Notes: generated by a model from the sequence alone, not told the origin. Counted from the stretch's first letter, positions 1 through 37,324 are shown. The stretch is DNA of 37,324 bases from Proteobacteria bacterium CG1_02_64_396 (GCA_001872725.1 MNWR01000062.1:1-37324), one strand, 5' to 3'. Made by a program: numbers and translations.

Positions 1-303
1 TGGAACAACAGATTCTCATCAGCATGGACGGACGGGGCCGGGCGCTGGACAACGTCTTCATCGAACGTTTGTGGCGCACGGTGAAGTACGAAGAGATCTA
101 CCTGTACGACCATGCCGATGGGGTGGCGCTGCACCAGGGGCTCGACCGCTACTTCCGGTTTTACAACACCGAGCGCCCCCACAGTGCCCTCGGCGGCAAG
201 ACCCCAGAACAGGTCCATCAAACCCACGGCGGAACCACCCACCGCCACTAACCGTTTACAAATTTTCGCCCCCAAACTGTCCAAGGAGTGGGGTCCACCC
301 CAC
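1..303 (+). mobile_element. Right-hand part of an IS3-family insertion sequence
   Basis: It comprises the transposase fragment plus the non-coding bases after its stop codon. A short perfect inverted repeat, GTGGGGT-CC-ACCCCAC, lies at 288-303. The element probably ends near the tggggtcca sequence around 289-297, since many IS3-family ends finish in CA. The left end is not in the window, so neither the terminal inverted repeat nor a target-site duplication can be confirmed. The right boundary is an estimate. Confidence 0.5.
3..251 (+). CDS. IS3-family transposase OrfB, C-terminal fragment (5' end outside window)
   Basis: The reading frame is open to the left edge, so this is the last ~82 residues of a longer protein. 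It carries the end of a DDE (rve-type) integrase core. Seen are S-M-D-G-R-G-R-A-L-D-N, then F-I-E-R-L-W-R-T-V-K-Y-E-E, in which the E of the ERLWR motif is the third catalytic acidic residue, then F-Y-N-T-E-R-P-H-S-A-L close to the C-terminus. This combination is typical of OrfB of IS3-family elements, which cut and join the insertion-sequence DNA. The first two catalytic Asp residues lie outside the window, so whether the element is intact cannot be judged. It ends about 150 bases from the end of the neighbouring minus-strand operon. Confidence 0.9.
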   Translation, partial: EQQILISMDGRGRALDNVFIERLWRTVKYEEIYLYDHADGVALHQGLDRYFRFYNTERPHSALGGKTPEQVHQTHGGTTHRH

Positions 304-341: not shown

Positions 342-383
342 CCAACAAAAAAGCCCGGCCAAGTGGCCGGGCTTTTTTGTTGG
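342..383. terminator. Perfect bidirectional intrinsic terminator
   Basis: A 19-bp arm (342-360) pairs perfectly with 365-383 around an AAGT loop. The GC-rich core GCCCGGCC/GGCCGGGC is flanked by A6 on one side and T6 on the other, so it has the form of an intrinsic terminator in both directions. It lies 15 bases beyond the stop of the DUF3570-like gene on the minus strand and ends that operon. It also insulates the operon from the insertion sequence on its other side. Confidence 0.93.
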
Positions 384-398
384 TGCCAAGAACCGGGA

Positions 399-1721
399 TC
401 AGAACTTGAAGACGCCGGTAATGTTGAGCTGGTGCATCTGATATCCGGAGTAGATGTCGTTCTTCTGCGGATCGGTCTGCTGCTGGTATTCGTACCCAAC
501 CGAGATCGAGTCGACCACACCGGTGCTCCAATCGAACCAGGAGGTGTCCTCCCAGACGAAACCACGATCCGGCTCACTCGGCGTTTCGGCGGTGAAACCC
601 CAGGTGTAGTGGAGGCCAAACCGGATGGCGGTCAGGGCGCCTAACTTGTCGTCCCCGGTGTAGTACTGGGGCAGTCCCGTGGGGGTCACGGTCGTGGAAT
701 TGGCCGGAACCGACAACCCTTGTACCCAGAAATCGACCGCTTTTTGCGTCATGTAGCGCAAGCGGAATTCCATCATGTCGGACTCGCCCACCGGCTGGTA
801 CAGGTGGGAATCGACCGTATGACTGGTTAGCCCCCAATCGTCGGTGTAGTAGCGGTAGGCAACATGCAGCGCCGCATCCCAAGGCAGATGACGGGCCACC
901 TGAATGGCGTAGGCATCGCGGGAGCGGGTACCAGGCATCTGCTCGAAACGCCACTGCTGGGTGTCGCTCCAAGTGTTGTTGAGCGGCTGATAAATGTTGT
1001 TCACCGCACTACCGGCGGTGGGGAACAGGTAAATCAGGTAATAGGGATCGGCCAAGTAACCGTTCATGTTGCGATGATTCCAGACCAACTGGGCGATGGT
1101 CTCATCGTCGATCACCTGGGTCAGGTCGACGGTGTACGAATCGTTGTTCCGCGCCCGGTTGCCCTTGCCCTTGTAGTAGCCGATGGAGGGGGTCCAGTAG
1201 TCGCGACCGATCACCGCCGATACGCCCAGTGTGGTGTTGTGCAGATTGAAATCCCAGGTTAGGCCGGCATTGACGGTGCGGGCCACATAGTCGAGCTCTT
1301 TGGAGTACGACACGCCGTAGGTGATGTCTCCGCCATCGCCGATGGGTCCTTGAAGACCATGGGTCAGCTGGATGGTCGGGTTGTACCTGACTTCGTCAGG
1401 ACCCTCTTGCTCGCCGCCGCCCGAGGCACCCGAAAGGGTATCGATGCGGGTATTGGCAAAGCGGTCCACATGCCGCGAAGCGGCGGTGATGGCATCGATG
1501 GTTAAACCCAAATTCAGCGAGGAGGACTCGGCGTAGGGCTGAGTGATCGAGATCTTCGGGGTATAGATGTCGTTGCCGTGGTTGTCGGAGTAGATGAAGA
1601 AAGAGGCCTCTTCGAATCGCTCCCCTTCGGCCACCGCAGCCTGCGCCACGCCACTCATCGCCAGGACGGCGACACCTGCCAGCATCCAAGAGCGGGCAAA
1701 AGTCATCGGGATCAGTTGCAT
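399..1721 (-). CDS. DUF3570-like outer-membrane beta-barrel protein with a flavinylation-type motif
   Basis: A 440-residue exported protein. A signal peptide runs to about residue 28 (ending V-A-Q-A). The rest is rich in alternating hydrophobic/polar strands and aromatic residues and ends in Phe (T-G-V-F-K-F), as outer-membrane barrels do. Layout and neighbours match the DUF3570 family, usually found beside a DUF4266 lipoprotein and a TlpA-like protein. Residues 94-100 read D-T-L-S-G-A-S, which fits the D-x-x-[ST]-G-A-[ST] site where ApbE attaches FMN through the last Ser/Thr. The start at 1721 has GGAGG nine bases upstream and overlaps the preceding gene by 10 bases, suggesting translational coupling; Met6 is an alternative. 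It is the last gene of the operon, before the terminator at 342-383. The family's function is not known to me. Confidence 0.8.
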   Translation of the reverse strand: MQLIPMTFARSWMLAGVAVLAMSGVAQAAVAEGERFEEASFFIYSDNHGNDIYTPKISITQPYAESSSLNLGLTIDAITAASRHVDRFANTRIDTLSGASGGGEQEGPDEVRYNPTIQLTHGLQGPIGDGGDITYGVSYSKELDYVARTVNAGLTWDFNLHNTTLGVSAVIGRDYWTPSIGYYKGKGNRARNNDSYTVDLTQVIDDETIAQLVWNHRNMNGYLADPYYLIYLFPTAGSAVNNIYQPLNNTWSDTQQWRFEQMPGTRSRDAYAIQVARHLPWDAALHVAYRYYTDDWGLTSHTVDSHLYQPVGESDMMEFRLRYMTQKAVDFWVQGLSVPANSTTVTPTGLPQYYTGDDKLGALTAIRFGLHYTWGFTAETPSEPDRGFVWEDTSWFDWSTGVVDSISVGYEYQQQTDPQKNDIYSGYQMHQLNITGVFKF

Positions 1722-1939
1722 CCGCAGCCCCCTCCCTCTTCGCCGATACCGCCGGCGGCCCCTTCCCGGGATTCGAAGGTGTGATTTTCAAAGGCGCCCC
1801 GCTGGGGCGACTGACCAAATTGCATTTGGGGTTGCGCCAAAATTTCGCGCTCGTAGGGCATCACGCGAGTCAGCAGATCGCAGCCCGTCGCCCCTACCAA
1901 AACCCCGGCCAACACCAGAGTCGTTGGAATGATTCGCAT
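1712..1939 (-). CDS. DUF4266-like small lipoprotein ending in GGGCGCN
   Basis: A 75-residue protein with a lipoprotein signal peptide; the lipidated Cys is probably Cys20 in V-G-A-T-G-C. The mature part is only ~55 residues. It carries an L-A-Q-P-Q-M-Q-F segment, an E-S-R-E-G-A-A-G-G segment and the extreme C-terminal tail G-G-G-C-G-C-N with a Cys-x-Cys pair (72 and 74). I recognise this pattern as the DUF4266 family, which commonly precedes a DUF3570 gene, as here, where the two overlap by 10 bases. A Cys pair exposed at the end of a flexible Gly tail suggests a redox or metal-binding role, perhaps with the TlpA-like protein just upstream; that role is inference. A GAGG ribosome site lies about 11 bases before the ATG. 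Confidence 0.82.
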   Translation of the reverse strand: MRIIPTTLVLAGVLVGATGCDLLTRVMPYEREILAQPQMQFGQSPQRGAFENHTFESREGAAGGIGEEGGGCGCN

Positions 1940-1981
1940 CGCTTGCCGTGCCTCGTATGAAAATGAACCGTCGAAACTCGG

Positions 1982-2479
1982 TTATTGACCCAACAGACTG
2001 CCAACCTCTTGCCGCAACACATCGTCCTCGCCCTCGTGGTACCCCTCGTGAACGAAACGAACCACCCCCGCCTGATCGATCACCAAGGTCGTCGGCATCA
2101 CCTTGACCCCGTACTCCTTGGCCATGGTGTGCTTGGGATCGGCAATCACCTGGAAGGAGACCCCGCCGACCTGCTCCAAGAACTTACGGGCCTTGTCGAT
2201 GTTGGTGTCGTTGTTGATCGCCACCATCACCACACCCTTGGCGGTTAGCTCCCGATTGAGCTGGGAGAACACCGGGAACGACTCCTTACAAGGGCCGCAC
2301 CAGGAGCCCCAGAAATCGAGGATCACCACCTTGCCCCTGAGGTTTTCGAGGTTGACCGAGGACTGGTCGATCCCGGGCAAATCGAAGGTGGGGGCGGTGT
2401 CGCCGGGGGAGATCGCCCAAGCGTTGGCAGCCACGGCGGCGGCCATTGCGATGCTGCCCAACACGGTTTTGATGTTCAT
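1982..2479 (-). CDS. TlpA/ResA-like periplasmic thiol-disulfide oxidoreductase
   Basis: A 165-residue exported thioredoxin-fold protein. The signal peptide ends near residue 22 (A-N-A-W-A). The active site W-C-G-P-C is at 60-64, with the usual cis-Pro at 129 (V-M-P-T-T). Length and layout match the AhpC/TSA-like TlpA subgroup, whose members usually reduce disulfides in the periplasm, for example in cytochrome c maturation or copper delivery. Here the neighbours are two lipoproteins upstream and the DUF4266/DUF3570 pair downstream, so its likely clients are operon partners such as the Cys-x-Cys tail of the DUF4266 protein (inference). The start has GGGAG seven bases upstream. The gap to the next gene is about 40 bases. 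Confidence 0.9.
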   Translation of the reverse strand: MNIKTVLGSIAMAAAVAANAWAISPGDTAPTFDLPGIDQSSVNLENLRGKVVILDFWGSWCGPCKESFPVFSQLNRELTAKGVVMVAINNDTNIDKARKFLEQVGGVSFQVIADPKHTMAKEYGVKVMPTTLVIDQAGVVRFVHEGYHEGEDDVLRQEVGSLLGQ

Positions 2480-2525
2480 GGGTGGCTCCCTTTATGTGAT
2501 TGGATTCAAAGCGATCTTGATTGAA

Positions 2526-3731
2526 TCAGTCGTCGTAACCGCCGCCGCTGGCACCAGTGGTGGCGTCGACCGGCTTCTGCTGCTTCTCGGCCCGTTCGAT
2601 GTCGACGAAGTAACGCTCCCCGGTTCCCTGTTCGTACCAGCCCAACAATTGGATGGCGCCCCCGGGTTGCGGTGCGGTGAATCCGGCCATGGTGCCCAGC
2701 GCCGTCAACACCGGCGCTGCACCGGGATTGGGGGCGGTATAAGTGGCTACCGTGGTGCCTACCGCATCGAGGAGCTGCAACTGCACTGGTGAACTCACCA
2801 CCGGATGGCTCCATGTCCCCGTCGTCATCGTCCAGCCCCATTTGGCACCATCCATCGTCCCATCCTCGGCATCGATCGCCAAACAGGTGGTGGCCGCCAT
2901 GATGTGCATGCTGGGGTTCATCCCCGCAAAGGGATCGGTTACCGGTGTCAACGCAAACCCCTTGGCCCAGTTCGTGAAATTGACCATCCAGTTGTTGTAG
3001 CCAGCATCGGTTGCGGGATTCGCAAACGGGATCTGCATCCCCGCCGCATTGGTTGCGCTTTTCACCGCAGCAGCGCCGAACGCCCACACCGAGGCATTGT
3101 AATTACCCTGTCCCACCTCAACCGTGGGATAGAGCTCCTTGGGGCTGGCCTGCAAACGACCGTAGGCGTAGCGGGAGGCCAGGGTGGTCAGCGGGGTCAG
3201 GTAGACCGTCACATGGCCGCTGCCATCGGCCGAGCCGGGAGGCACCGCCGCCGTCAGACCTGAATAGAAGACATTGGCGTTGGTCTGAACATTGTAGCTG
3301 ACCCCCTGCATGTGGTTGGCGGTCAGATCGACGGTGATCCCGGCATCGGTGTCGGTATAGGTCGCCGCAGTCACCCCGGTGCTCACCCCGTTCACGTTAC
3401 CGGGCTCCAAGGTGCGCACCACCATGGGGCGTTGAACCGGCGAGGTCAGATTGATAGTGAAAGCGCCGTAGGGGTCGGTGAAGGCATGACCCGATTCGGT
3501 GGCCAGGGTCTGTCCGTCTTTGGCGTTGATCTCAAACACCTGAACCTTGGTCCCCTGCAGCGGGATCATCGCCCCCGCAGTCGTCGCCCCAACATAGACA
3601 TGCCCGGTAATCTGGGTCGTCGCCGGACCAAACCAAGGGACCGCGCCATTGGTGATTTTGTTGTAGTTGCTCAGGCATCCAGCCAACAACAAGGAGGCAC
3701 CTGCCACCACCACCCATTTGCTCAAGCGCAT
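2526..3731 (-). CDS. Lipoprotein with C-terminal D-A-T-T-G-A-S flavinylation-type motif
   Basis: A 401-residue protein of no family I can name. It begins with a clear lipoprotein signal (L-L-L-A-G-C, Cys19), followed near residues 40-110 by a stretch resembling a carboxypeptidase-regulatory-like beta-sandwich (I-T-G-H-V-Y-V-G... F-T-D-P-Y-G-A-F-T-I). Most of the rest is Ala/Thr/Gly-rich and probably beta-rich. The last 13 residues are D-A-T-T-G-A-S-G-G-G-Y-D-D. D389-S395 fits the D-x-x-[ST]-G-A-[ST] signature where ApbE links FMN, and the Gly-rich tail resembles that of the DUF3570 partner (S-G-A-S-G-G-G). The ATG has GAGGA six bases upstream. It is the second gene of the operon, 31 bases after the first. 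I infer an envelope-anchored flavoprotein; nothing else in the sequence fixes the function. Confidence 0.78.
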   Translation of the reverse strand: MRLSKWVVVAGASLLLAGCLSNYNKITNGAVPWFGPATTQITGHVYVGATTAGAMIPLQGTKVQVFEINAKDGQTLATESGHAFTDPYGAFTINLTSPVQRPMVVRTLEPGNVNGVSTGVTAATYTDTDAGITVDLTANHMQGVSYNVQTNANVFYSGLTAAVPPGSADGSGHVTVYLTPLTTLASRYAYGRLQASPKELYPTVEVGQGNYNASVWAFGAAAVKSATNAAGMQIPFANPATDAGYNNWMVNFTNWAKGFALTPVTDPFAGMNPSMHIMAATTCLAIDAEDGTMDGAKWGWTMTTGTWSHPVVSSPVQLQLLDAVGTTVATYTAPNPGAAPVLTALGTMAGFTAPQPGGAIQLLGWYEQGTGERYFVDIERAEKQQKPVDATTGASGGGYDD

Positions 3732-3762: not shown

Positions 3763-4641
3763 TTACCAAACCACCGTCACCGGAGCCGAGTAGGCGATGA
3801 TCGCCCCGACCGCATCTTTACCCACCACCGTGACGTCGTAGCTCGTACCGGTCGCGAAGGGGAAGGTCAACAGGGCGCCGCCAACCCCGCCCAAGAAGGT
3901 GGGAACAGTCACCCCAATGGCCCCTCCAGCGAACAAAGAACCCCGGTAATCGTAGATGTATGCGACAGGGGTGATCGTGCCGGTGGCCGTGAAGAAAAAT
4001 TCAACCCGACTGGGGGCAAGCGTTGTGCTGGTATTGGCCACCGCAAAGAAATGCGTTGCAGCCGCACCCAGATTGTTGAGGGGAGGCGTCACGGTCAGGG
4101 TGGCGGTCGCCGTCCCCGGAATGGTCGGAAGAGCGCCCACGCCGCTGCGCACCAAATTGACGGTTTCGGTTTTGGCCAGCACCGCCCCTTGGGCGGGGGC
4201 AAAGTCGATGGTCTCGGGAACGTAGCCGGCGGTGTACACCACGCCGCCTGCGGTGGTGGTCGTGGTTGCGTTGCTGCCAATGTCGATTTGAGCACGTGCG
4301 ATGGCGGTGTTGTAGGCGTAGGTCACCACCCCGCCCAGGGTCGTCGTGGCACTCGGCAGCCCCAGATGAGGCGCAACCACCGCAGCGCTCACTGCGGTGG
4401 CACTGTACGCGTCCATCGCCAACACCGTGGTGGTATAGGTGGTCGCAGCCACGGTGGTGGTGGTACCGGTGGTGGTACCAGTACTCACCCCCGAAGCGCT
4501 GGTCGTGCTGTCGTGATCCTTCCCATCATCATCGTCCCCTCCTTCGCTCCCCTCGCCCCCGATGGAGCATCCGGCCAGCAGGCCCACAGCCGCAGCCAAC
4601 ACCAAAGCCGAGAATTTGTGTGCGTTACGATGAGCGTTCAT
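3763..4641 (-). CDS. Thr/Ala/Gly-rich lipoprotein, first gene of the operon
   Basis: 292 residues from the ATG at 4641, which has GGAGG about five bases upstream. The frame is open further upstream, but the signal peptide starts here. The lipobox is G-L-L-A-G-C (Cys25). It is followed by an acidic linker with D-D-D-D, a Thr-rich stretch, and a long low-charge region that alternates like beta-strands and ends in V-T-V-V-W. I do not recognise a family. Residues 44-50 read D-S-T-T-S-A-S, one change (Gly to Ser) from the flavinylation-type motif of two other operon members; on its own this is weak. It is preceded by a possible sigma-54 promoter at 4721-4736 and by the regulator gene. Confidence 0.72.
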   Translation of the reverse strand: MNAHRNAHKFSALVLAAAVGLLAGCSIGGEGSEGGDDDDGKDHDSTTSASGVSTGTTTGTTTTVAATTYTTTVLAMDAYSATAVSAAVVAPHLGLPSATTTLGGVVTYAYNTAIARAQIDIGSNATTTTTAGGVVYTAGYVPETIDFAPAQGAVLAKTETVNLVRSGVGALPTIPGTATATLTVTPPLNNLGAAATHFFAVANTSTTLAPSRVEFFFTATGTITPVAYIYDYRGSLFAGGAIGVTVPTFLGGVGGALLTFPFATGTSYDVTVVGKDAVGAIIAYSAPVTVVW

Positions 4642-4846: not shown

Positions 4847-6220
<1,374 letters not shown>

Positions 6221-6295: not shown

Positions 6296-7963
6296 CTAGA
6301 CCTCAATGGCTGGGGGGGTTGCGTCCTCGGGGGGGTGCGCGGGCAGGTGAACCTTGAACAGGCTCCCCTCCCCCTCGCGACTGCTCAACTCGATACGTGC
6401 GCCGTGGGCGTGGGCGATTTCGCGGATCAGATGCAGGCCAATGCCGGTTCCTTGCGGTTTGCCCTCTTTCGAGGCCCCCTGCTCGAAGCGGCGGAAGATC
6501 CGCTCCTGATCGAGCTCTGAGATCCCAGAACCGGTATCGCCGACCTCGACCACCGCCCCCCCCCCCTCCTCGGGGGCGACGTGAATCCAGACCTTGCCGG
6601 TTTCGGTGAACTTGACCGCATTGCCCGCCAGATTGATGAGCACCTGCTTAATGCGATCCCGGTCGGCCATGATGGAACAGGGGGCTCCATCGGCGGTAAG
6701 GATCAGCCCCTTGTCTTGGGCCTGGGGCATCAGTAGGGCGCCGACCTCGTGAACCAAAGGCAGAAGGTTCAGCGGGTTGAAGCGCCACTCCATCTTGCCC
6801 GCCTCGATGCGCGACAGATCGAGCAAATCGTTGATCATGAAGGTCAACCGCTCCCCCTCGGCGGCGATGATCCCCGCCGCGTCGCGCAGGTCGTCGCCCT
6901 GAATGCGCCGTTCGAGTAAACGGGCAAAACCGACGATGGAGGTCAGGGGGGTGCGCAGCTCGTGGCTGACATTGGTCAAGAAGTAGGTCTTGAGCTGATC
7001 GATCCGCTCCAGTTGCCGGGTCGCCTCGGCCAGATCGGCGTTGAGGTTGGCCAGGTTGGTGTTGCGCTCGGCGAGCTCCTCCTCCTTGATTTGAATGTGG
7101 GTCCACTGGCGCCGCATCGCCTTGGCCAAATCCCCCAATTCGTCGCTGCGCATCACCGGCAATTTGGCAATGGAGGGACCATCCCAATAGCGGGCGCAGT
7201 TGGTCACCAGACCGAGCGGTTTGAACACCCGCCAACGTAGGAAGAAGAGCAGCAGCCCAATGGTGAACAGGGCAAGGGCGGCGATCATCTCAATGGTCTG
7301 TTCGATCAAAGTCCGGGCATCCCGTAGCGCCCCCCGGGAATGCAGCACCGCGAGGTACCCGGCATCCCCCAGTTGATACCACAGCTTTTGATCCTCCCCC
7401 TCGCGCCCCCCCAAATCGATGCGGACCTCCCGGTCGGGAAGTTGGCGGTATTGCTCCGGCACCTGGTCGGGAAAAGGGGCGGTCGACCAGAGCAGGGCAC
7501 CCTGGGCATCGAACATGGCCACTGGTGCGCCGAGGATTTGCCCCAGGTCCATCAATTTGCTGGCGTCGAGGGTTCGCTCAATGTGGTAGACCTTGGTGCT
7601 ACCGTTGGCCAGGGGGACCTCGGTGATGCGGGTAATGCCGTCGGTGGAGGCAACATATCGCTGGCTACGCCCTTGCGATTGGTCGCTCAAGGCGACGTTC
7701 ATCCCAAATTCGAGCCAGATTTTGCTCTCTTGCACCGATTGGGTGCGGGCCAACAGCAGCGCCGCCCGCCGGTCGAAGGACTCCTCTTCATCGATCCATT
7801 GGGTCAAGCCGTCCGAGAGGCTCGCCAAATGGGCGCGGTCCTCCTCATCGATGACCCCTTGGATCATCCAAGCCAAGACCAGCGCCGGAATCACCGCCAC
7901 CACGGCGATGGCCCCCAAAACGGGGGCCACGATCTGGAGCGACACGCTGCGCATCACGGCCAT
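6296..7963 (-). CDS. Membrane sensor histidine kinase, partner of the adjacent NtrC-type regulator
   Basis: 555 residues. One membrane segment lies at about 10-35, followed by a ~190-residue periplasmic sensing region (36-224) and a second membrane segment at about 225-243. A HAMP-like linker and coiled coil follow at about 244-325. HisKA carries the phosphorylated His334 in N-V-S-H-E-L-R-T-P-L. The HATPase domain shows the N box (L-I-N-L-A-G-N-A-V), G1 (D-T-G-S-G-I), F box (F-R-R-F-E-Q-G) and G2 (G-T-G-I-G-L). The double-Cache-like size of the periplasmic part suggests a small-molecule or envelope signal, but I cannot name the ligand. Met4 is an alternative start. It is transcribed just before the regulator, and a hairpin at 7987-8009 separates it from the FecR gene. 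Confidence 0.94.
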   Translation of the reverse strand: MAVMRSVSLQIVAPVLGAIAVVAVIPALVLAWMIQGVIDEEDRAHLASLSDGLTQWIDEEESFDRRAALLLARTQSVQESKIWLEFGMNVALSDQSQGRSQRYVASTDGITRITEVPLANGSTKVYHIERTLDASKLMDLGQILGAPVAMFDAQGALLWSTAPFPDQVPEQYRQLPDREVRIDLGGREGEDQKLWYQLGDAGYLAVLHSRGALRDARTLIEQTIEMIAALALFTIGLLLFFLRWRVFKPLGLVTNCARYWDGPSIAKLPVMRSDELGDLAKAMRRQWTHIQIKEEELAERNTNLANLNADLAEATRQLERIDQLKTYFLTNVSHELRTPLTSIVGFARLLERRIQGDDLRDAAGIIAAEGERLTFMINDLLDLSRIEAGKMEWRFNPLNLLPLVHEVGALLMPQAQDKGLILTADGAPCSIMADRDRIKQVLINLAGNAVKFTETGKVWIHVAPEEGGGAVVEVGDTGSGISELDQERIFRRFEQGASKEGKPQGTGIGLHLIREIAHAHGARIELSSREGEGSLFKVHLPAHPPEDATPPAIEV

Positions 7964-26833: not shown

Positions 26834-29800
26834 TTAATTGAGCGTCAATTTTCCGCCCACCACCATCTGCGAATCGACCTTCAGGGTCAGATTGCCTCCA
26901 TTCCAGGTATAGGTGTTGTATAGGGGATCGCCATCCAGGACGACCTCGGTCCAAGGGCCACCGCTGACGACGGCTGCATCGCTGACATCACCCCGAATCC
27001 AGAAGGTATGACGGTCGCTGTCCATCATCTGCCGCATACGGGTGGCATTGATGACGATGGTTTCGTTCGAGTTGATGCCGGTCGGCTCGCCGACCTTCCT
27101 CAGGTTGATCATCTCAAACCCGGTGAAGGTATTGGGCAACTTGTTGGCAGCCGTGAAATCGACCGTGCCGGTGCCGTAATAGAACTCCAGGCTGTCGAGA
27201 CCACGACCGCCCACATATTTGCCGGTGGGCACCCCTGCCGCGTAGAAGGCCACGGTGTCGATGGATCCGGCATTGATCAGAATTTTGTCGTCCCCCTGAC
27301 CGCCGAAGATGAAGTCGGGCGCGGTCACCACATTGCCGGTGTCATTGCCTTGCAGCAGGTAGTAGTAGGCCGAACCGGAAATACCACCGCTGTTGCCGTC
27401 GTTGCCGCTGGTTCCGTAATAGTTGCGGATGCCGCTGAAGTCGTTGCCGTAGATCAGGTAAGCCCGGCCCACGGTGCTATTCCCAAGCGCATATCCTCTG
27501 GCCCCCAACAACAGATCGGCAAAGCCATCTCCGTTCCAATCGGTCCCACCCACGATTGCAGAGCCGAGATCCTCGTCGGGGAAGGTTCCTTGAACGGTGA
27601 AGCCTTGGCTCGGGGTGATTTGGGTGACGTCCAACGTCGCCCCGGCGACGCTGCCGCCATAGAGCATCGAGACCTGATCCAAGCCGGTTGTGTAGAGGGA
27701 AGAGCCCATTGCGATGTCGTCCCTGCCATCGCCATTGATATCGCCCACCATGGCCACCTTATCGCCAAGAGTCATTGCGGCGCCGTTGAGGGTGGATCCC
27801 AGAATCGTAAAGCCGTTGGTTCCATCCAAGGGGGTTGTACTCAAATCCAAGCTGGCGAACGTTGCCGACCCGTATACGACATCGACACAGCCGCCACCAA
27901 GGTAGAGCGTCATGCCAATGGTCGTCTGGGCCGACGATGCACCGATGACCAGGTCGCTGTAGCCGTCGCCGTTGATATCGCCCCCGCCGGCAACGCTGAT
28001 CCCAAAATAAAAAGAATAGGTCTCGGGCAGGATGGTCCGGACGGTCGGCGTTACTCCGGGTGCGAGCGCTGCGCCCCCTTGAACCAGATAGACCTTTCCG
28101 TGAAAGACGTTCTCGTATTGAGCCCCGATCACGGCATCGGCGTACCCATCGCCATTGACGTCGCCCGCCGTCGCCACCGAAACGCCGAATTGGCCGTTAT
28201 TGATCGACGCACCATAGAGTTCGATGCTGTTGGCGGCGCTCAACGCGGCGCTGGAGGGGCTGGCCGCACCAAAAATAATGTTGGCGCGTCCGGCATCGGC
28301 GTTGGGGCCGACATCGACAAATGGTGTCCCGGTGACGATGTCGTCCCAACCATCACCATTCATGTCTCCCGCAAAGGCCACGGATTGACCCAGCCGGTCT
28401 TGCGCCAGCGCACCGCTGAAGGTCACGCCATCGGCTGCGGTCATGGTGGTCACGTTGAGTACCCCGGCAGTACCGATGGTGGAAACCCCGGCGACGTGGG
28501 GTTGACCGTAGATCACCAGCACTTGGCCCTCGTAGGTGTTGGTTCCAAATCCACCCACACTGAAGAAGGGGTCGCCGATCAACACATCGTCGTATCCGTC
28601 ACCGTTGAAATCCCCGCAACTGGGTGAGAAAGACAGGCCATAACTCAGCAAGCCATCGATGGCGACCGTCGTTGTGCCGTCGGGGGTCGCAAGATCAAGC
28701 GCCGCCAGGGTTTTGGCCGCATTGGCCTGACCGAACACGATGTTGGCCCTGTAGCCGGCGCCATACCCACCCGTCACCACAAAGTCCTCGAAGCCGTCTG
28801 CGTTGAGATCCCCGGCTGTTCCTACGGCGTAGCCGATGGGATACCACCCACTGGAGGCATCCAAGGTTGAAACCTTCTCTGGATCGAGCTGCGTCAAATC
28901 GATGGTGTTGTCGTGAATGGTGACGGTACCGCTTGCCGTGGCCACGATGGCGTTGGAGGGGCTGGAAAGATCGAGCGTGAACTGGGCGTCGGGTTCGAAT
29001 TGGGGATCCTTGACCAAGGGGACCACCACCTCATGAACCAACTCGCCCAGATAAAAGGTTAGGGTGCCGCTTTGCCCGGTGTAGTGGGTGCCGTCCAGGG
29101 CGGTTCCGTCAGTCGTGGCGTATTGCACCGACGAGACATACAGCCCGTTGTCCCGCGCCACCCGAATCCGAACCTCGCCCTTGTCTTCGTTCACCGCCAC
29201 GTCCTGAACTACGATGCTCGGATAGGTCGGCATATGAGCATCGACCCACAGCGAAACATCCCCCAGTGAAAGCTGATTGGCCCCCTGCGGCATCCCGTAC
29301 TGAGTTCCCAAGTCGCCAATCAGACCGGCTGGCGTCGTGGTGGCGCCCGCCGTTGATGCACTCCAGCTTTCGGCGCCAAAATCGATCTTGTCGTCCGCAC
29401 CGGCGGCAACAATCACGACGCCTCGATCCGATTGCCGATTGAGCCAGCGCGCCGTATTGGCATCGAGGACGACCTGATTGGCGGCGGTGCCGCCAAAATC
29501 GATGATTTCGATCCCCCGAATTTGCTCCGGCCTCAAAGCCGTCAAATCCAATATCGTATCGGCCTGGTCGAACACCAGGCGATCCAGACCCGCTCCCCCG
29601 TCGACCCGGGCAAAGTCGGTCCCCGTCACGTGAATGACGTCGCCGCCCGGACCGCCGGTGATGACATCGTTGCCGCCACCCCCAATGAGGGTTTCATTCC
29701 CTCCCGCCCCCTTCATGACATCCCTGCCCGCAGTTCCGGCTCTGGTTTCGTTCGCGGCGACCAAATGGGTGATCTGATTGGTCAGGTTGTTGCCGTAGAC

Positions 29801-32800
29801 AAGGTAATTGACCGAACGGCTCTCATTGGAAAACGCCACGTCGGGATAGCCGTCACCATTGACGTCTCCGGTTGAGGTGACATAGGTCCCAATCTTGGGG
29901 AGCAGCACCTGGCCGGTGATGGCATAACCGTTGGAACCGTCGAGTCCACTGGCGTAACTCACCCCCGGCAAAGAGGCTCCTCCGTAGAACACGAAGACCT
30001 CGCCGACATTGGCTGCCACCGCATCCGACCCCGGCGCCCCCACCACGATATCGTCGAAACCATCGGCGTTGAGATCGCCGGGGGATGCCATTCCTTGACC
30101 AAAATAACTCAATGAACCGCCATGGTCGCCGACGTAACGAACGCCGAGCCCCGTAGCATACAAATCGGTTGCTAGGTCGATGGTGCCAACCGCCTCAAGA
30201 GCGGGCCCGCCCCAAATCGCGGCGACATCTCCTTGCCAAGAGCTGCCGTATCGACCGCCGATCAACAAATCGCTGTAGCCGTCGCCGTTGATATCGCCAT
30301 GCGACAGGGCATCACCGGACCAGTTGTAATAGGCGCCCGAAATCGTCACCCCCGCCGAAGTCGTTAAATCGATGGTTCCGGGCAAGGTTGGCGCGCCGTA
30401 GACCAAGTAGACCTTCCCGGCATAGCTACCGCTCGCGGCAATCGCCGTGTTCTCGCCGATCATGAAGTCGGCATAGCCATCGCCATTCACGTCGCCCGCC
30501 GCGCTCAGATCGCTTCCCAGCGATGTAGAAGAGGCCACGTTCAACTGTATCCCCTGCCCAGTGCCAGAAATCGCGTCCAAATCGATGGGGGTCGTCGTGG
30601 AAAGATGGCCTCCATACACCAGATAGGCGCGATCCGATTGCGCGTTTTTTCCGATCAACAGGTCGGGATAGCCGTCGCCATTCACATCGCCAACCACCCT
30701 GATGTTGTTGGCCATGTAGGCGCTGGCGGTCGTCCGCCCAATCTTGGTCACCCCGGTTGCGCTTGAAATATCGACATCGACCGGCGAGGCGGAGCCGTAA
30801 ATCACGTAGATGCCCCCACCATACGAGCCCACCACACTGGCATAAGGGGCTCCGACAATGATGTCGCTGTAGCCATCTTGATCGATGTCGGCCCCGGCGA
30901 TGGCCGCCCCCAATCTTCCGTAACTTCCATGGGTGATGACGATGTAATCGCTGCCCGGGGTCATGGCGGCAACATCGACGGCTCCGTAGACCCCCAAGCC
31001 GGGTTTTCCGAAGACCACAAACACCCGCCCTTGGTACCCATTAAAGGTGCTTTCACTCACGGCAAAGTCGTCGTAGCCGTCGCCGTTGACATCACCCACA
31101 CCGGCAATGGGACGGTCATCCCAATAACCCGCCGTCGTCATGGGCACCTTGGCCCCGTTGACGCCGGTAAGAACGTTCAAATCCAGGGGTTCGTAGGTGA
31201 TCGTTCCCTGTGCCTCGACGTTCGACTCGAATGCCCCTTGAAGGTTGACGATGTTCAAGAAAAAGGTCTCGTCGGCCTCGGGCAATTGATCGACGGAAAT
31301 GGGGACCGTGATTTGATGGGTCGATGCAAGCCCAGGAGGAATCGATACTTGACTTCCCCGGACGCGCTGATAATCCAGATCGACCCTGGCCGATCCATCG
31401 GAAGTGACATAGTCGAAAACGACGGGATCGTTGGGATGGTCTGCAATGCTGACGTAAAACACGGCATTGCTTCCCTCCGTCACCGCAATGTTGCCCACCG
31501 AAATCGTGGGTGTAGCGGGGTTCTCGACAATCTTGAGGGACGGCAAAACCTTCACGTCCACCGAGGTCGAGGGGGTGCCCGCGCCATTCGATGCGGTCAG
31601 CAAGATGCTGTAGGTTCCCGAAATGGATGGCGTGAAACCGATCGTCTGTTCCGTTCCACTCAGGCTCTGCGTACTACCGACCGGTTGCGCCGTAATCTGC
31701 CAGTTATATTGGGCATCTCCATCGACGTCGTTGGTATTGGAGGCATCCAATAAAACCGTCTGCCCCAAGGCCACCGATGAGGGTGCTTGGAGATCCACTG
31801 CGATGGGGTCGGCCACAGCTGCAACCTCGACGGTCAAGGCCACCGTTGCAACCTGATCGACAGTGGTTGCCGAAATGGTCAACGTAGCCAAACCGTGCAG
31901 GTTCGCCGCAGAATCCAGCCGCAACTCCCCCGTCACCGCGTCGATGGCATAGTCGCTGAATAACGACGGCGCCGCAGGGTCGGACACGAAGGTATAGACC
32001 ACGTTTTCGATGGCGTAGGTGATCGCCTCGCCGTTGGCGTTATGGGCAGCCAACGTTCTGTAACCCACACCAAAATCCTCATTCAGATTCCAAATCGCGC
32101 TGCTTCCCAAGTCGAACTTGGGGGCATAGTCCACCGCCAAAACCAAGCTGAAGCTCTTGACCGTAGCGCTGGTTGCACTGTCGGTCGCGGTCAAGGTGAC
32201 CGCGGGGGTGTCGGTGCTCAAAGGCAACGTCACCACGCCGCTGGCATCGATCAGCCCCGGCTGGTTGGAAGACCAAGTGACCGCGGTGCCGCGTGTCAGG
32301 ACCGTCGGCAGGTTGAGGTTGTAGCGGATGGATGCAGCGGTGTCGTTCTGTCCCTGAATCGTGGCGAAGGTCAGATGATCGCGGTCGTAGGCAAAGTTGG
32401 TCTTGGACAGTGCGATGGTCTCCACCAGAACGAGCCCTTCATTGCCGACGATGGTGACGTTGATCGTCCGGCTGGTGTAGTCGGCACTGGCCGGAGTCAA
32501 AACCAACCGATAGTTACCCGCCGTCACCCCGTTCAGAGTGAAACTGCCATCCACCGCCGAGGTGGTATTCCCCAGGGTCGTTCCGGTTTGATCTTTCAGG
32601 CTTACCGTCACCCCGGAATGATCGCTCCCCTCCTCCAGATTGAGGGTTCCGCTGAGCTGGTTCACCGCCAAAGACAGGGTCTGAGTTGTTCCGGCCGTCG
32701 TCACCACCACGTTCGCAACCTGCGCGTTGCCATAGCCCGACTTTTGAGCCGAGAGGGTGTAGGTTCCGGCGATCACTCCGGTGATCGCGACCTGGCCAGT

Positions 32801-35800
32801 GCCGTCGGTGGCGGTGGTGGCGGTGTAGGTGTGGTTGGCACTTTGCAGGGTCACGTCGACCGCACCCAACTTGTTGGTGCCATCGTCGGTGGTCACGGCG
32901 ACCGTCCCGGCGTTCAGTGTCAGGGTCTGCGTCGTGGCCGTGAGCTGATCGCCCTGGCTCAAGTTGTACCCAGCGGTGTCGGCCACCGCGATGTAATCGG
33001 CCAGCGAATAATCGATCTGGGTGTAGTTGGCGGCAGGCACCGTTTTCTGCCATTGCCCCAAGGCATTGGTCACCGTGGTGTAGCTGTTGGTATTGGTGTC
33101 GGTCAGGGTGACCAGGATCCCCGAGTGGTCGGTGGCGCCGCTTTTGGTGGCGACCCCCGACAACACCCCCTGATTGCGCGCCAGGGTAATGGGGCTGAGC
33201 AGGGCGTAGTTCTGGTCGACCAGGATGGTCACCGGGATCGTCTGGGTGACATACCCCGGCGCGCCGACCTGAAGCTGATAACTCCCCGACCCCACCCCAA
33301 AGAAGCTAAACGCCCCGGTCACCGCATTGATGGTGGCGTTGGGAATGGCGGTCCCCAGCAACTGCAACGAGATGGGGGAATAATCGCTCGCCCCCAGCAA
33401 CATGGCGGTGCCGGTCAGGGTCAGGCGGCTGAGGGCGATGGGGGCGCCCAAGGTCGTGGTGGCCCCTGAGGTCACCGTGATGGCGGTTTGGCTCGCCGAG
33501 GCGTGATGCCCCGCCGCCACCGTCAGGGTGGCGTTGGTCGAGACCGGAACCCCGGTCACGGTGAAGGTGCCATTGCCCGCCGAGATGGCGGTCGCGCTAC
33601 CCAATGCGGTCGAAACCACTATGGTGGCGTTGGCGATGGGGGCGCCCAGATCGTCGACCACGCTACCGGCAATGCTGCCGGTCGCCGGAAGCAAGGTGCG
33701 AATGCCGACACGGGTGGTGGCGGCATTGGCCACCAGATACCCAGAGGTGTCGTTCGCGGTTAGGAAACCGGTCTTAGCGAAGGTCACCGAGGCGACCGAA
33801 CCGGCTTGAACGTCAAGCTGCCAATAACCTGAAACATCGCTCGTGGCCGCCACCCCGGAGGCGGTCACCGTCACCCCGGAATGATCGTTCTGACCCGAAA
33901 GGACCACGTACCCGCTCAAGGTCCCTTTGGCGGCCTGCAAGGTCACCGTACCCGGCACCGCATAAGTGACGATGCCGTCGACCACAGCGACCGGAATCGT
34001 CTGGGTGACGAAGCCCGATTGGCTCAAGGTCAGGTTGTAGTTGCCCGGTTCGATCCCAGCCACGTTGACGACACCGATGTTCCCCACGCCGTTGGTCACC
34101 GTACCGAGATAACTCCCCGCACTACCGCTCAACATGGCGCTCACCGCTGCCGTGGTGCTGCCGTCGGCCATCGCCACGGTCCCGGTCAGCATCCGCTGGG
34201 TCAAGGTGACATTGATCGCAGCGGGACTGGTCACCGTCGCCCCGGTGCCGGGGTCGACGCTCACGCTCACCGTCAGCGCTTGGCTCAAATAGCCGGGGGC
34301 AGAGACGGTCAGGGTGCGGGTGCCGGTCGGCACCCCGGTGACCGTGAATGCCCCCGCCGAGGCCAGGGCGGTGTGGCCCAGACCGTCGCTAACGGTGGCG
34401 CCCGATGGCGAAACCGTGCCGCTCACCGAAACCGCCTTGGCGGTCATGGAGCTCGTGCCCAAATCGACCGGGGTCGCCGAGGCGATGACGGCGGGGGTGC
34501 CGGCCGAGACCGCCGCATCGGCCAGGGTCACGTAGTCCGAATGGCCGTACTGCACCGAGGTGACACTCCCCTCGGGCAGGATCAAGAGCCAAACCCCGGT
34601 CGGATCGGTGGTGGTGGTGACGCTTCCGGCAGGGCCGGTGGCAGTCACGACGACGCCGCCGTTTTCCACCGCATTGGGCAGCACCACCCGACCGGTCAGG
34701 GTGCCGGTGGCAGCGGCCAGGGTGATCGTGCCGGGCAGGGTGTAGGTGGCGACGCCGTCGACGATGGAGACCGGAATCGTCTGGGTGACAAAGCCCGCTT
34801 GGCTCAGGGTCAGGTTGTAATTGCCCGGCTCGATCCCGGCGACGCTCAGGGTGCCGATGTTTCCGGCGCCGTTGGTGACCGAACCGGTGTAGGTGCCGGC
34901 GGAACCGGAGAGGGAGACCACCATCCCGGCGGTCGTAGTGCCGTTGGCCATTGCTACGGAGCCGGTCAAGGCGCGCTGGGTTAGGACAACGTTGATCGCA
35001 GCGGGGGTGGTCACCGCAAGGCCGCTGACCGGATCGACACTCACCGTCACCGTCACCGCCTGGCCCAGGTAGCCGGGGGCGGTCACGGTCAGGGTGCGGG
35101 TGCCGGTCGGCACGTTAGCCACCGTAAAGGCGCCCGCCACGGCGGTGGAGGTATGGCCCAGGCCGTCGCTGACGGTGGCGGTTGCAGGGGTCACCACGCC
35201 GCTGATTGATACCGCCTTGGCGGTCAGCGATGTGCTCCCCAGATCGACCGGGCTGTTTGAGGCGATCACGGCGGGGGTGCCCACCGATACCGCCGCATCA
35301 TTTTGGGTGACGTAGTCGGCGTGGCCGTACTGCACCGATTCGATGTTCCCCTCGGGCAGGGTCAGCAGCCAAACCCCGGTCGGATCGGTGGTGGTGGTGT
35401 AACTACCGGCAGGACCGGTAGCGGTCACGACGACCCCTCCGTTCTCGGTCGCATTGGGCAGCACCACCCGGCCGGTCAGGGTGCCGGTGGCCGCTTGCAG
35501 GGTGATCGTGCCGGGCAGGGTGTAGGTGGCGACGCCGTCGACGATGGAGACCGGAATCGTCTGGGCGACAAAGCCCGATTGGCTCAGGGTTAGGTTGTAG
35601 TTGCCCGGCTCAATGTTGGCGACGAGCAGCGCGCCGGTATTGCTGATCGGATCGTGCACCACCGACCCGGAATAGGTGCCGGGGGCGCCGCTCAGGGATA
35701 CAACCACCCCGGCGGTGGAGGTGCCGTTGGCCATCGCCACGGCGCCGCTCAAGGCGCGCTGCGTCAGAGCGACGTTGAGCACGCCGGGGGTGGTGATCGC

Positions 35801-37324
35801 CAGGCTGGTGACCGGATCGACATTCACCGTCACGGCGACCGTCTGGCTCAGGTAACCGGGGGCGGTCACGGTCAGGGTGCGTTGCCCGGCGGAGACCCCC
35901 GCCAGGGTAAAGCTGCCCGCCACGGCGGTGGTGGTGTGGCCCAGACCGTCGCTGACGCTGGCGGTCGCGGGTGAAACGGCGCCGCTCAGCGAGACCGTTT
36001 TGGCCACCAGGGTGACCACCCCTTTGTCGACCGGGGTGGCCGCAGAAACCGCGACGGTCGCGGCGTCGCTCTGCCCCACGTAATCGGCGTGGCTGTAGCC
36101 AATGCCGCCGGTGTAACTCCCCTCAGGCAGGTTCAAAGCCCACTGCCCCACCGGATCGGTGGTGGTGGTTTGCCCCCCCAGCGAGACGAGCACACCGCTG
36201 TTGTCGGCCGCGCCCGGCAGCACCACACGACCCACGACCGAGCCGATGGCGGGATCGAGGACGATGGCGCCGGGGGCGGTGAAGGTGCCGGTGTTGTTCA
36301 GCACCGTGATGGTACGGGTTTGGGTGACAAAGCCGGTTTTGCTGGCCTGAATCTGATAGGCGCCATCGACCACGCCGCTGAAGGTGAAGGCTCCGACTGC
36401 GTTGCTGGTGGTGGTGAGGTTGATTCCCCCGCCCCCGCTCAGGGTCAGGGTCACGCCGCTGTGGTTCACCGCCCCTCCCCCCAGGTTGACGGTGCCGGTC
36501 AGGGTCAAGGCGGTCAGGGCGATGGGGGTGGCGCTCAGATCGGTGGTGGCACCGGTCGTCACCGTCGCGGCGGCGACCCCGGTGGTGAAGCCGCTCTTGA
36601 TCGCGGTCAGGGTGCGGCTGCCGACCGGGCTGCTTAAGGTAAATACCCCGCTGGCGTTGGTGGTGGCGGCGTTGCCCAGATCGTCGGCAACGCTCACCCC
36701 GGCCAGCGGGGTGGCGCCGTTTTGCACCAAGCCGGTGATCGTCCCGGTGTTGCGGGTGAGCGTCAGCAGGCCGGTGTCGGTGGTCTGACTGGCCGTGACG
36801 GTAAGGCCGGTTTTCGATCCCGCCGCATAGTCGGCGTGGGTCACGGCGATTTGATAGGCGCTGCCTGCCTGCACGTTGGTGGCCCAGACGCCGGTGGCGT
36901 CGGGAATCGCGGTGGCCAGGGTGGTGGTTCCAGCGCTGTTTTTCACCGTCACGCTGGCCGCTGCGTAATCGGTCGCGCTCCCCTTCGCCAAAGAAACCCG
37001 CCCTTGCAAGGTGCCGTAGGCGGTATCCATCGCCAGGGTCGGAGCGGTGGTGGCGGTTTGATCGGGCACCACCACGGTGAGGCTGCGGGTGGCGTAGCCG
37101 GTCTTGGCAAAGCTCAACGCGTAGGTGCCGGGATTCAGGCCGTTGAAGGCATAAGCGCCCAAGGCGTCGGTGGTCGCGGTGGCGCCGGAGCTGGCCACGG
37201 TGACCACCACCCCGGAAAGGGACGCGCCGCCGGTGGTGGCGGTGACCGCGCCCGACAGGGTGCGCTGGGTCAAGGCGATGTTACCGACGGAGGTCGCGGC
37301 GCCGTGGGTCACGGCGGCGGTCAC
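26834..37324 (-). CDS. Giant multidomain surface/secreted protein (carboxypeptidase-regulatory-like, Calx-beta, FG-GAP, RTX-like), N-terminus outside window
   Basis: About 3,496 codons are visible; the frame is open to the right edge, so start and signal are missing. In order (numbering from the edge): 1-1635, serial carboxypeptidase-regulatory-like beta-sandwiches, with L-T-Q-R-x-L-[ST]-G-x-V units repeated every 260 residues in part; ~1640-1735, a divergent bacterial Ig-like domain; ~1740-1840, cadherin-like; ~1840-1928, PKD-like; ~1940-2045, Calx-beta; ~2050-2520, seven FG-GAP repeats; ~2525-2575, RTX-type Gly-Gly-x-Gly-x-Asp; ~2700-2808, a second Calx-beta; ~2815-3300, seven more FG-GAP repeats; then an RTX-like G-G-Q-G-D-D segment and C-terminal domain. 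Calcium-binding Asp/Asn are plentiful. It is probably a secreted adhesin-like protein, perhaps type I secreted; no secretion genes are in the window. Base composition resembles the neighbours. Confidence 0.93.
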   Translation of the reverse strand: MTAAVTHGAATSVGNIALTQRTLSGAVTATTGGASLSGVVVTVASSGATATTDALGAYAFNGLNPGTYALSFAKTGYATRSLTVVVPDQTATTAPTLAMDTAYGTLQGRVSLAKGSATDYAAASVTVKNSAGTTTLATAIPDATGVWATNVQAGSAYQIAVTHADYAAGSKTGLTVTASQTTDTGLLTLTRNTGTITGLVQNGATPLAGVSVADDLGNAATTNASGVFTLSSPVGSRTLTAIKSGFTTGVAAATVTTGATTDLSATPIALTALTLTGTVNLGGGAVNHSGVTLTLSGGGGINLTTTSNAVGAFTFSGVVDGAYQIQASKTGFVTQTRTITVLNNTGTFTAPGAIVLDPAIGSVVGRVVLPGAADNSGVLVSLGGQTTTTDPVGQWALNLPEGSYTGGIGYSHADYVGQSDAATVAVSAATPVDKGVVTLVAKTVSLSGAVSPATASVSDGLGHTTTAVAGSFTLAGVSAGQRTLTVTAPGYLSQTVAVTVNVDPVTSLAITTPGVLNVALTQRALSGAVAMANGTSTAGVVVSLSGAPGTYSGSVVHDPISNTGALLVANIEPGNYNLTLSQSGFVAQTIPVSIVDGVATYTLPGTITLQAATGTLTGRVVLPNATENGGVVVTATGPAGSYTTTTDPTGVWLLTLPEGNIESVQYGHADYVTQNDAAVSVGTPAVIASNSPVDLGSTSLTAKAVSISGVVTPATATVSDGLGHTSTAVAGAFTVANVPTGTRTLTVTAPGYLGQAVTVTVSVDPVSGLAVTTPAAINVVLTQRALTGSVAMANGTTTAGMVVSLSGSAGTYTGSVTNGAGNIGTLSVAGIEPGNYNLTLSQAGFVTQTIPVSIVDGVATYTLPGTITLAAATGTLTGRVVLPNAVENGGVVVTATGPAGSVTTTTDPTGVWLLILPEGSVTSVQYGHSDYVTLADAAVSAGTPAVIASATPVDLGTSSMTAKAVSVSGTVSPSGATVSDGLGHTALASAGAFTVTGVPTGTRTLTVSAPGYLSQALTVSVSVDPGTGATVTSPAAINVTLTQRMLTGTVAMADGSTTAAVSAMLSGSAGSYLGTVTNGVGNIGVVNVAGIEPGNYNLTLSQSGFVTQTIPVAVVDGIVTYAVPGTVTLQAAKGTLSGYVVLSGQNDHSGVTVTASGVAATSDVSGYWQLDVQAGSVASVTFAKTGFLTANDTSGYLVANAATTRVGIRTLLPATGSIAGSVVDDLGAPIANATIVVSTALGSATAISAGNGTFTVTGVPVSTNATLTVAAGHHASASQTAITVTSGATTTLGAPIALSRLTLTGTAMLLGASDYSPISLQLLGTAIPNATINAVTGAFSFFGVGSGSYQLQVGAPGYVTQTIPVTILVDQNYALLSPITLARNQGVLSGVATKSGATDHSGILVTLTDTNTNSYTTVTNALGQWQKTVPAANYTQIDYSLADYIAVADTAGYNLSQGDQLTATTQTLTLNAGTVAVTTDDGTNKLGAVDVTLQSANHTYTATTATDGTGQVAITGVIAGTYTLSAQKSGYGNAQVANVVVTTAGTTQTLSLAVNQLSGTLNLEEGSDHSGVTVSLKDQTGTTLGNTTSAVDGSFTLNGVTAGNYRLVLTPASADYTSRTINVTIVGNEGLVLVETIALSKTNFAYDRDHLTFATIQGQNDTAASIRYNLNLPTVLTRGTAVTWSSNQPGLIDASGVVTLPLSTDTPAVTLTATDSATSATVKSFSLVLAVDYAPKFDLGSSAIWNLNEDFGVGYRTLAAHNANGEAITYAIENVVYTFVSDPAAPSLFSDYAIDAVTGELRLDSAANLHGLATLTISATTVDQVATVALTVEVAAVADPIAVDLQAPSSVALGQTVLLDASNTNDVDGDAQYNWQITAQPVGSTQSLSGTEQTIGFTPSISGTYSILLTASNGAGTPSTSVDVKVLPSLKIVENPATPTISVGNIAVTEGSNAVFYVSIADHPNDPVVFDYVTSDGSARVDLDYQRVRGSQVSIPPGLASTHQITVPISVDQLPEADETFFLNIVNLQGAFESNVEAQGTITYEPLDLNVLTGVNGAKVPMTTAGYWDDRPIAGVGDVNGDGYDDFAVSESTFNGYQGRVFVVFGKPGLGVYGAVDVAAMTPGSDYIVITHGSYGRLGAAIAGADIDQDGYSDIIVGAPYASVVGSYGGGIYVIYGSASPVDVDISSATGVTKIGRTTASAYMANNIRVVGDVNGDGYPDLLIGKNAQSDRAYLVYGGHLSTTTPIDLDAISGTGQGIQLNVASSTSLGSDLSAAGDVNGDGYADFMIGENTAIAASGSYAGKVYLVYGAPTLPGTIDLTTSAGVTISGAYYNWSGDALSHGDINGDGYSDLLIGGRYGSSWQGDVAAIWGGPALEAVGTIDLATDLYATGLGVRYVGDHGGSLSYFGQGMASPGDLNADGFDDIVVGAPGSDAVAANVGEVFVFYGGASLPGVSYASGLDGSNGYAITGQVLLPKIGTYVTSTGDVNGDGYPDVAFSNESRSVNYLVYGNNLTNQITHLVAANETRAGTAGRDVMKGAGGNETLIGGGGNDVITGGPGGDVIHVTGTDFARVDGGAGLDRLVFDQADTILDLTALRPEQIRGIEIIDFGGTAANQVVLDANTARWLNRQSDRGVVIVAAGADDKIDFGAESWSASTAGATTTPAGLIGDLGTQYGMPQGANQLSLGDVSLWVDAHMPTYPSIVVQDVAVNEDKGEVRIRVARDNGLYVSSVQYATTDGTALDGTHYTGQSGTLTFYLGELVHEVVVPLVKDPQFEPDAQFTLDLSSPSNAIVATASGTVTIHDNTIDLTQLDPEKVSTLDASSGWYPIGYAVGTAGDLNADGFEDFVVTGGYGAGYRANIVFGQANAAKTLAALDLATPDGTTTVAIDGLLSYGLSFSPSCGDFNGDGYDDVLIGDPFFSVGGFGTNTYEGQVLVIYGQPHVAGVSTIGTAGVLNVTTMTAADGVTFSGALAQDRLGQSVAFAGDMNGDGWDDIVTGTPFVDVGPNADAGRANIIFGAASPSSAALSAANSIELYGASINNGQFGVSVATAGDVNGDGYADAVIGAQYENVFHGKVYLVQGGAALAPGVTPTVRTILPETYSFYFGISVAGGGDINGDGYSDLVIGASSAQTTIGMTLYLGGGCVDVVYGSATFASLDLSTTPLDGTNGFTILGSTLNGAAMTLGDKVAMVGDINGDGRDDIAMGSSLYTTGLDQVSMLYGGSVAGATLDVTQITPSQGFTVQGTFPDEDLGSAIVGGTDWNGDGFADLLLGARGYALGNSTVGRAYLIYGNDFSGIRNYYGTSGNDGNSGGISGSAYYYLLQGNDTGNVVTAPDFIFGGQGDDKILINAGSIDTVAFYAAGVPTGKYVGGRGLDSLEFYYGTGTVDFTAANKLPNTFTGFEMINLRKVGEPTGINSNETIVINATRMRQMMDSDRHTFWIRGDVSDAAVVSGGPWTEVVLDGDPLYNTYTWNGGNLTLKVDSQMVVGGKLTLN
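27470..28850 (-). repeat. Second set of seven FG-GAP repeats (integrin-like propeller)
   Basis: Seven copies of a G-D-x-N-x-D-G-[YFWR]-x-D-[ILVFA] motif lie near 28790, 28580, 28340, 28130, 27950, 27710 and 27510, about 180-240 bases apart. Each is preceded by F/Y-G-x-A type strands. Seven is the number needed for one closed integrin-alpha-type beta-propeller, each blade carrying a DxDxDG-like calcium loop. Confidence 0.88.
29600..29760 (-). repeat. RTX-type nonapeptide repeats inside the giant gene
   Basis: The encoded segment reads G-R-D-V-M-K-G-A-G-G-N-E-T-L-I then G-G-G-G-N-D-V-I-T-G-G-P-G-G-D-V-I-H-V. These are about three tandem G-G-x-G-x-D-x-[LIV]-x calcium-binding repeats of haemolysin type, followed by an R-V-D-G-G-A-G-L-D-R-L stretch. 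A similar, shorter segment (G-G-Q-G-D-D-K-I-L-I) follows the second propeller near 27270-27310. Confidence 0.85.
29790..31140 (-). repeat. First set of seven FG-GAP repeats (integrin-like propeller)
   Basis: Seven G-D-[VI]-[ND]-x-D-G-[YF]-x-D motifs lie near 31090, 30870, 30670, 30480, 30280, 30060 and 29850, spaced about 190-230 bases. Typical examples are G-D-V-N-G-D-G-Y-D-D-F-A-V and G-D-L-N-A-D-G-F-D-D-I-V-V-G. The set follows a Calx-beta domain and precedes the RTX-type repeats, the same order as in the second set. Confidence 0.88.
33930..36240 (-). repeat. Tandem 780-bp coding super-repeat (about three copies)
   Basis: Corresponding positions recur at an exact 780-base offset: the GACCGGAATCGT motif begins at 33989, 34769 and 35549, and the bases around it are nearly identical in the last two copies. 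Each unit encodes 260 residues made of three beta-sandwich subdomains with landmarks T-L-T-G-R-V-V-L-P-N-A, V-S-D-G-L-G-H-T, L-T-Q-R-A-L-[ST]-G and E-P-G-N-Y-N-L-T-L-S-Q. The copy nearest 33930 and the continuation beyond 36240 are more diverged. The high DNA identity points to recent duplication or gene conversion. Confidence 0.9.

Follow-up and report, generated by a model that had tools for sequence, protein, structure and literature searches.

On balance, we read a minus-strand gene cluster in Proteobacteria bacterium CG1_02_64_396 as a DUF3570/DUF4266/thioredoxin-type system for electron transfer in the envelope, served by ApbE in trans and with an orphan lipoprotein, LipoA, as a flavin carrier. 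The system itself belongs to a known kind, to whose ApbE substrates LipoA would add a new variant. Gene content, motifs, conservation of the DUF3570 sites, a barrel prediction, and the presence of ApbE, Rnf, and DsbD in the genome, all observed or computed here, form the basis of this reading. Within the window (the whole stretch of DNA analyzed, 37,324 nucleotides), the genes run in the order histidine kinase, NtrC-type regulator, lipoB, lipoA, TlpA-like thioredoxin, DUF4266, and DUF3570 (Table 1). The last five most likely constitute a single operon, in which the DUF4266 and DUF3570 genes overlap and 46 bases separate lipoA from the TlpA-like gene. As in other DUF3570 systems, a thioredoxin-like gene (CGPC) and a DUF4266 lipoprotein gene (GGGCGCN tail) lie beside DUF3570, here between it and lipoA, as an earlier sequence-only reading of this DNA had noted. 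The codon-position GC of lipoA resembles that of its neighbors, and this measure speaks for both lipoA and lipoB being real genes. LipoB gave no Pfam match over the cut-off and contains neither a flavinylation motif nor a heme motif; a DNA match resembling the motif, at 4552-4571, was discarded because it is not in the lipoB frame. Judged by its position, the NtrC-type response regulator is probably the operon's regulator. A candidate sigma-54 site ahead of lipoB (4736-4722) was rejected: it is weak, and matches in the promoter scan were no commoner than chance (36 found versus 44 expected). At the other end, the hairpin at 345-383 is probably the operon terminator, placed ahead of a transposase fragment.

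Table 1. Features of the DUF3570 cluster and its surroundings, with positions counted from the first letter of the window
Feature	Position	Strand	Basis or detail
Sensor histidine kinase	6296-7963	-	Pfam
NtrC-type sigma-54 response regulator, directly upstream of lipoB	4847-6220	-	Pfam
LipoB, orphan Thr/Ala-rich lipoprotein, 292 aa	3763-4641	-	Lipobox LLAGC; GGAGG before ATG
LipoA, orphan lipoprotein, 401 aa, candidate ApbE substrate	2526-3731	-	Lipobox LLAGC, Cys19
LipoA tag DATTGAS, residues 389-395 of 401	2547-2567	-	In-frame translation; shuffle test
TlpA/ResA-like thioredoxin, signal peptide and CGPC	1982-2479	-	AhpC-TSA 5e-27, Redoxin 1e-26; ResA model E=1e-29
DUF4266 (PF14086) small lipoprotein, C-x-C tail GGGCGCN	1712-1939	-	Pfam E=2.3e-21
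DUF3570 (PF12094) outer-membrane beta-barrel, 440 aa	399-1721	-	Pfam E=3e-48, 165 bits versus cut-off of 25
DUF3570 site 1, DAITAAS, residues 76-82, Ala for Gly	1476-1496	-	Alignment of 85-96 homologues
DUF3570 site 2, DTLSGAS, residues 94-100	1422-1442	-	Canonical; final Ser in 90% of 96 homologues
Hairpin with T-run just 3' of the DUF3570 stop	345-383	-	Fold -36.8 kcal/mol, z -5.9, 0/200 shuffles as good
Integrase-type transposase, C-terminal fragment, contig end	3-251	+	Read from translation

Two proteins of the operon match the motif D-x-x-[ST]-G-A-[ST] in frame, DUF3570 with DTLSGAS and LipoA with DATTGAS, just where the sequence-only reading had placed them. For DUF3570, that reading was correct about site 2 but missed site 1, in which Ala stands for Gly. 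The conservation on which it had made its proposal depend was borne out for DUF3570 by the homologue alignments. Across 96 aligned sequences, site 1 follows the consensus D76-x-x-[ST]-[GA]-A-[ST]82, with D76 at 88%, A81 at 89%, and S82 at 82%, whereas the residues of site 2 (D94 to S100) other than the final Ser are less conserved. By this alignment, site 1 is the family's more conserved site. At least one [ST]GA[ST] is present in 66 of 85 aligned DUF3570 sequences, and the window protein carries its motifs at the conserved positions, canonical at site 2 and as AAS at site 1. The window protein shares Ala at site 1 with Sulfurimonas, Aquificaceae, and Manganitrophus sequences, in which site 2 mostly reads GAS or GAT; in Chlorobiaceae sequences, kin of the tested Chlorobium protein, SGAS or TGAS aligns at both sites. 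That tested protein, from Chlorobium luteolum, is flavinylated by ApbE at two sites, and both serines had to be mutated before flavinylation vanished (PMC8238504). Replacement of Gly by Ala in the motif cuts flavinylation to about half (review, PMC12052999). We predict that the window barrel is very probably flavinylated. A flavin-bearing DUF3570 barrel had initially been presented as new; flavinylation of a family member does stand on experiment, but the novelty does not, because Meheust et al. published this half of the finding in 2021 (PMC8238504).

An exported ApbE, which the proposed modifications call for, was found in the genome (2.94 Mb, 98.5% complete). The single apbE (E=2.9e-84) lies outside the DUF3570 cluster, on another contig (C48), and given its lipobox (LVAGC), the enzyme is probably exported. 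Its neighbors, recognized by eye, are what we take to be a gshA-like gene and a gene for a NusG_II-like domain. Rnf genes are present on contig C102, so ApbE has at least RnfG, which reads DQFTGAT, as a client. RnfD reads DTVTSAS, with Ser at the Gly position; RnfD is modified in other organisms, and if it is modified here as elsewhere, then ApbE tolerates change at that position. A DsbD protein is encoded on contig C38.

To place this arrangement among its relatives, we collected 80 named DUF3570 loci and 30 same-phylum loci, about 110 neighborhoods together. Within 4 kb of the 80 named loci, a TlpA-like gene was found at no fewer than 60, DUF4266 at no fewer than 27, and apbE at no fewer than 66, all of which are lower bounds, given that diverged proteins of the window served as queries and that short contigs were common. 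The statement in the sequence-only reading that DUF3570 and DUF4266 genes occur near apbE therefore holds generally but fails for this cluster. One could suppose that apbE was lost at a mobile-element insertion beside DUF3570, leaving a decaying remnant in which neither protein is now flavinylated. In favor of this, the transposase fragment lies 150 bases past the DUF3570 stop, at the spot that apbE occupies in most loci, and the window DUF3570 is on a long branch and lacks Gly in site 1. The Ala-form site, however, is also widespread among Sulfurimonas and Aquificaceae that retain apbE in their clusters. Decay is further made improbable by the intactness of all five genes, by the strong hairpin that closes the operon ahead of the mobile element, and by a working-looking ApbE in the genome that must serve RnfG.

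The assignment of DUF3570 as an outer-membrane barrel, also made in the sequence-only reading, agrees with structure prediction. An AlphaFold model built with a 96-sequence alignment has 16 main strands (pLDDT 80.6, pTM 0.81), the protein ends in Phe, in line with the C-terminal aromatic residue expected of an outer-membrane barrel, and Foldseek searches with the model returned OmpG, FadL, TonB-dependent receptors, and porins (best E 3e-8). No barrel is mentioned for DUF3570 in the flavinylation literature searched. With strands numbered from the N-terminus, both flavin sites fall in the model where strand 3 ends and in the loop between strands 3 and 4 (residues 80-109, of which 83-103 are modeled with low confidence). 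The long loops 3-4, 7-8, 9-10, 13-14, and 15-16 all lie on one face of the model, loop 14-15 being the exception. Given that outer-membrane barrels keep their termini in the periplasm and their long loops outside, this face would be the cell exterior. The 40 most conserved residues are unevenly spread: 33 belong to the long-loop face, in its loops or in the upper third of the strands, and 2 to the opposite face. Those at the long-loop mouth are mostly at in-facing positions as judged by hydrophobicity, and the same measure gives lumen-facing parity for the conserved runs S140-E142-D144, R290-Y292-D294, and R322-M324-Q326 (position 324 is Met in the window protein and Tyr in most homologues). 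The model thus places the flavin sites, together with a conserved lumen-facing polar pocket, probably at the exterior mouth of the barrel. An exterior flavin site would mean that ApbE must act before barrel insertion. We consider this predicted exterior placement the most interesting point of the analysis.

LipoA carries its motif at the very end of the protein, where six residues (GGGYDD, with GGG reaching 2538) separate it from the stop. No match to LipoA was obtained in Pfam, NCBIfam, or PDB sequences, and Pfam and NCBIfam detect no known ApbE-substrate domain in it, whether FMN_bind, DUF2271, or other. Searches of 100 relatives, 399 phylum genomes, a genome-contig scan, and plasmids yielded no homologue; four weak matches (E 0.004-0.008) were dismissed as chance, and the one read fully (L104) is an unrelated short-chain dehydrogenase. 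AlphaFold did not predict a fold for LipoA alone (pLDDT 31). What the protein does have is D-x-x-[ST]-G-A-[ST] in an exported context. When built into engineered proteins, a terminal tag of seven residues suffices for modification by ApbE (PMC12052999), and the LipoA tail is therefore a chemically competent site. We lean slightly toward LipoA being flavinylated, which would make it a candidate new ApbE substrate.

Alternatively, the barrel alone is flavinylated; the tail of LipoA would then match by chance, or simply be flexible and rich in Gly and Ser, and LipoA would be a structural or binding lipoprotein of the operon. This is a serious possibility, though not the one we expect. LipoA is rich in Ala, Thr, and Gly, and shuffling the mature protein reproduces the motif somewhere in 0.74% of cases but within the last 20 residues in only 0.03%, a test that was made after the fact and is to be weighed accordingly. 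When the whole genome was scanned for the pattern at the DNA level, 65 matches turned up, versus 38 for a reversed control; decoding the frames left about a dozen in-frame sites in addition to RnfG. Several of these carriers look cytosolic or unrelated, and because some are Ig-like or cytosolic-looking, the motif alone is weak evidence. Position and context nevertheless speak against chance. The LipoA motif lies 6 residues from the C-terminus and the next nearest among the decoded sites 41 residues. For the extended form D-x-x-[ST]-G-A-[ST]-G-G, the genome has true coding sites in DUF3570 and LipoA only, one in each; the two proteins have GASGGG in common, and lipoA shares an operon with a proven substrate family. 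A parallel is missing from the related clusters, in that none of the roughly 110 DUF3570 neighborhoods encodes another lipoprotein with a C-terminal motif.

Another gene occupies the corresponding position in some of these clusters. In 12 Sulfurimonas, Aquificaceae, and related loci, a diheme lipoprotein with two CxxCH motifs is encoded directly upstream of TlpA. Flavin and cytochrome modules substitute for one another in respiratory systems (PMC8238504), and by analogy LipoA could be a flavin substitute for the diheme lipoprotein. The replacement of heme by flavin is a positional analogy only, because the DUF3570 tree does not group the window protein within the diheme-lipoprotein clade; we do not claim descent from such a cluster, the window DUF3570 being a long, isolated branch.

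Taking LipoA as a flavin carrier, we infer the following direction of electron flow. Reducing power would cross the inner membrane, possibly via the genome's DsbD, and reduce the TlpA-like thioredoxin, which would pass it by thiol exchange to DUF4266 at its C-x-C tail. The FMN bound covalently to the DUF3570 barrel would then take the electrons and hand them over at the outer membrane. LipoA, with its DATTGAS tail flavinylated by the genome's ApbE, would act as a mobile or anchored one-flavin carrier from the gene slot given to the diheme lipoprotein in related clusters. If the DUF3570 flavin sites are exterior, the family becomes a candidate heme-free outlet, which bears on the open question of how electrons, in the absence of multiheme cytochromes, pass across or to the outer membrane. 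The fullest version of this idea is tentative and, in our estimation, rather unlikely: DUF3570 as a heme-free electron outlet with its flavins in the conserved exterior-mouth pocket, loaded before insertion, and a flavin-tagged LipoA in place of the diheme lipoprotein. The C. luteolum protein was expressed in the 2021 study, which makes the outlet idea testable. If LipoA does bear a natural C-terminal flavin tag without a flavin fold, ApbE substrates need no dedicated domain, and many may therefore have been overlooked.

Clusters of DUF3570, DUF4266, thioredoxin, and ApbE were described as "DsbD systems" by Meheust et al. in 2021 (PMC8238504). The present cluster resembles them in its DUF3570 with sites, its DUF4266 C-x-C tail, its TlpA-like thioredoxin, and an exported ApbE in the genome. 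Unlike them, it has apbE and dsbD elsewhere, and two orphan lipoproteins, one of them ending in the motif, and a two-component system lie upstream. The Sulfurimonas and Aquificaceae clusters likewise have a lipoprotein gene directly upstream of tlpA-DUF4266-DUF3570; their product carries two CxxCH motifs, whereas LipoA has none and carries a flavin motif instead; the likeness shown here is one of gene slot. FMN_red proteins, too, have a C-terminal extension that is unstructured and bears predicted flavinylation sites (mSystems 2024, PMC11334425). There, however, the extension accompanies an established flavin-binding fold encoded next to apbE, while LipoA has no recognizable fold and is not encoded beside apbE. 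A further likeness to the LipoA tail is the flavin-tag of Tong et al. (2021), as PMC12052999 presents it: a seven-residue D-x-x-[ST]-G-A-[ST] at the end of a protein that ApbE can modify. That tag was engineered; LipoA appears to bear a natural one.

A protein resembling RTX proteins and carrying DSVSGAS in its N-terminal domain lies within or adjoining the DUF3570 cluster in two Burkholderiales (loci L091 and L086). The remaining matches in the same two genomes begin only from residue 55 onwards, and a search of 399 genomes of the phylum returned a single weak match. It may be a further ApbE substrate, or the likeness may be mere RTX-repeat resemblance. The window itself contains a DPGTGAT match within the minus-strand open frame of ~3500 residues at 26837-37324, where it is probably a repeat feature.

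Features discussed, with coordinates in the window or in the named locus
Feature	Location	Strand	Remark
Open frame	window 26837-37324	-	Runs off contig; Ig-like-looking repeats
Transposase fragment	window 3-251		Contig end
RnfD	L016 122-1219		Source genome
RTX-like protein	L091 2759-3583	+	DSVSGAS; Burkholderiales
RTX-like protein	L086 7482-8966	-	DSVSGAS; Burkholderiales

RnfD of the source genome has DTVTSAS, not SGAT, at the expected flavin site. Among other DUF3570 loci, 12 (L018, L019, L022, L024, L025, L027-L031, L040 and L041) encode a diheme lipoprotein of the QGWHFQGRDCLxCHN type immediately upstream of tlpA-DUF4266-DUF3570; in several of these, an additional heme lipoprotein gene precedes it, as does a CcdA-like gene in Aquificaceae. 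The transposase fragment in the window occupies the position held by apbE in most DUF3570 clusters.
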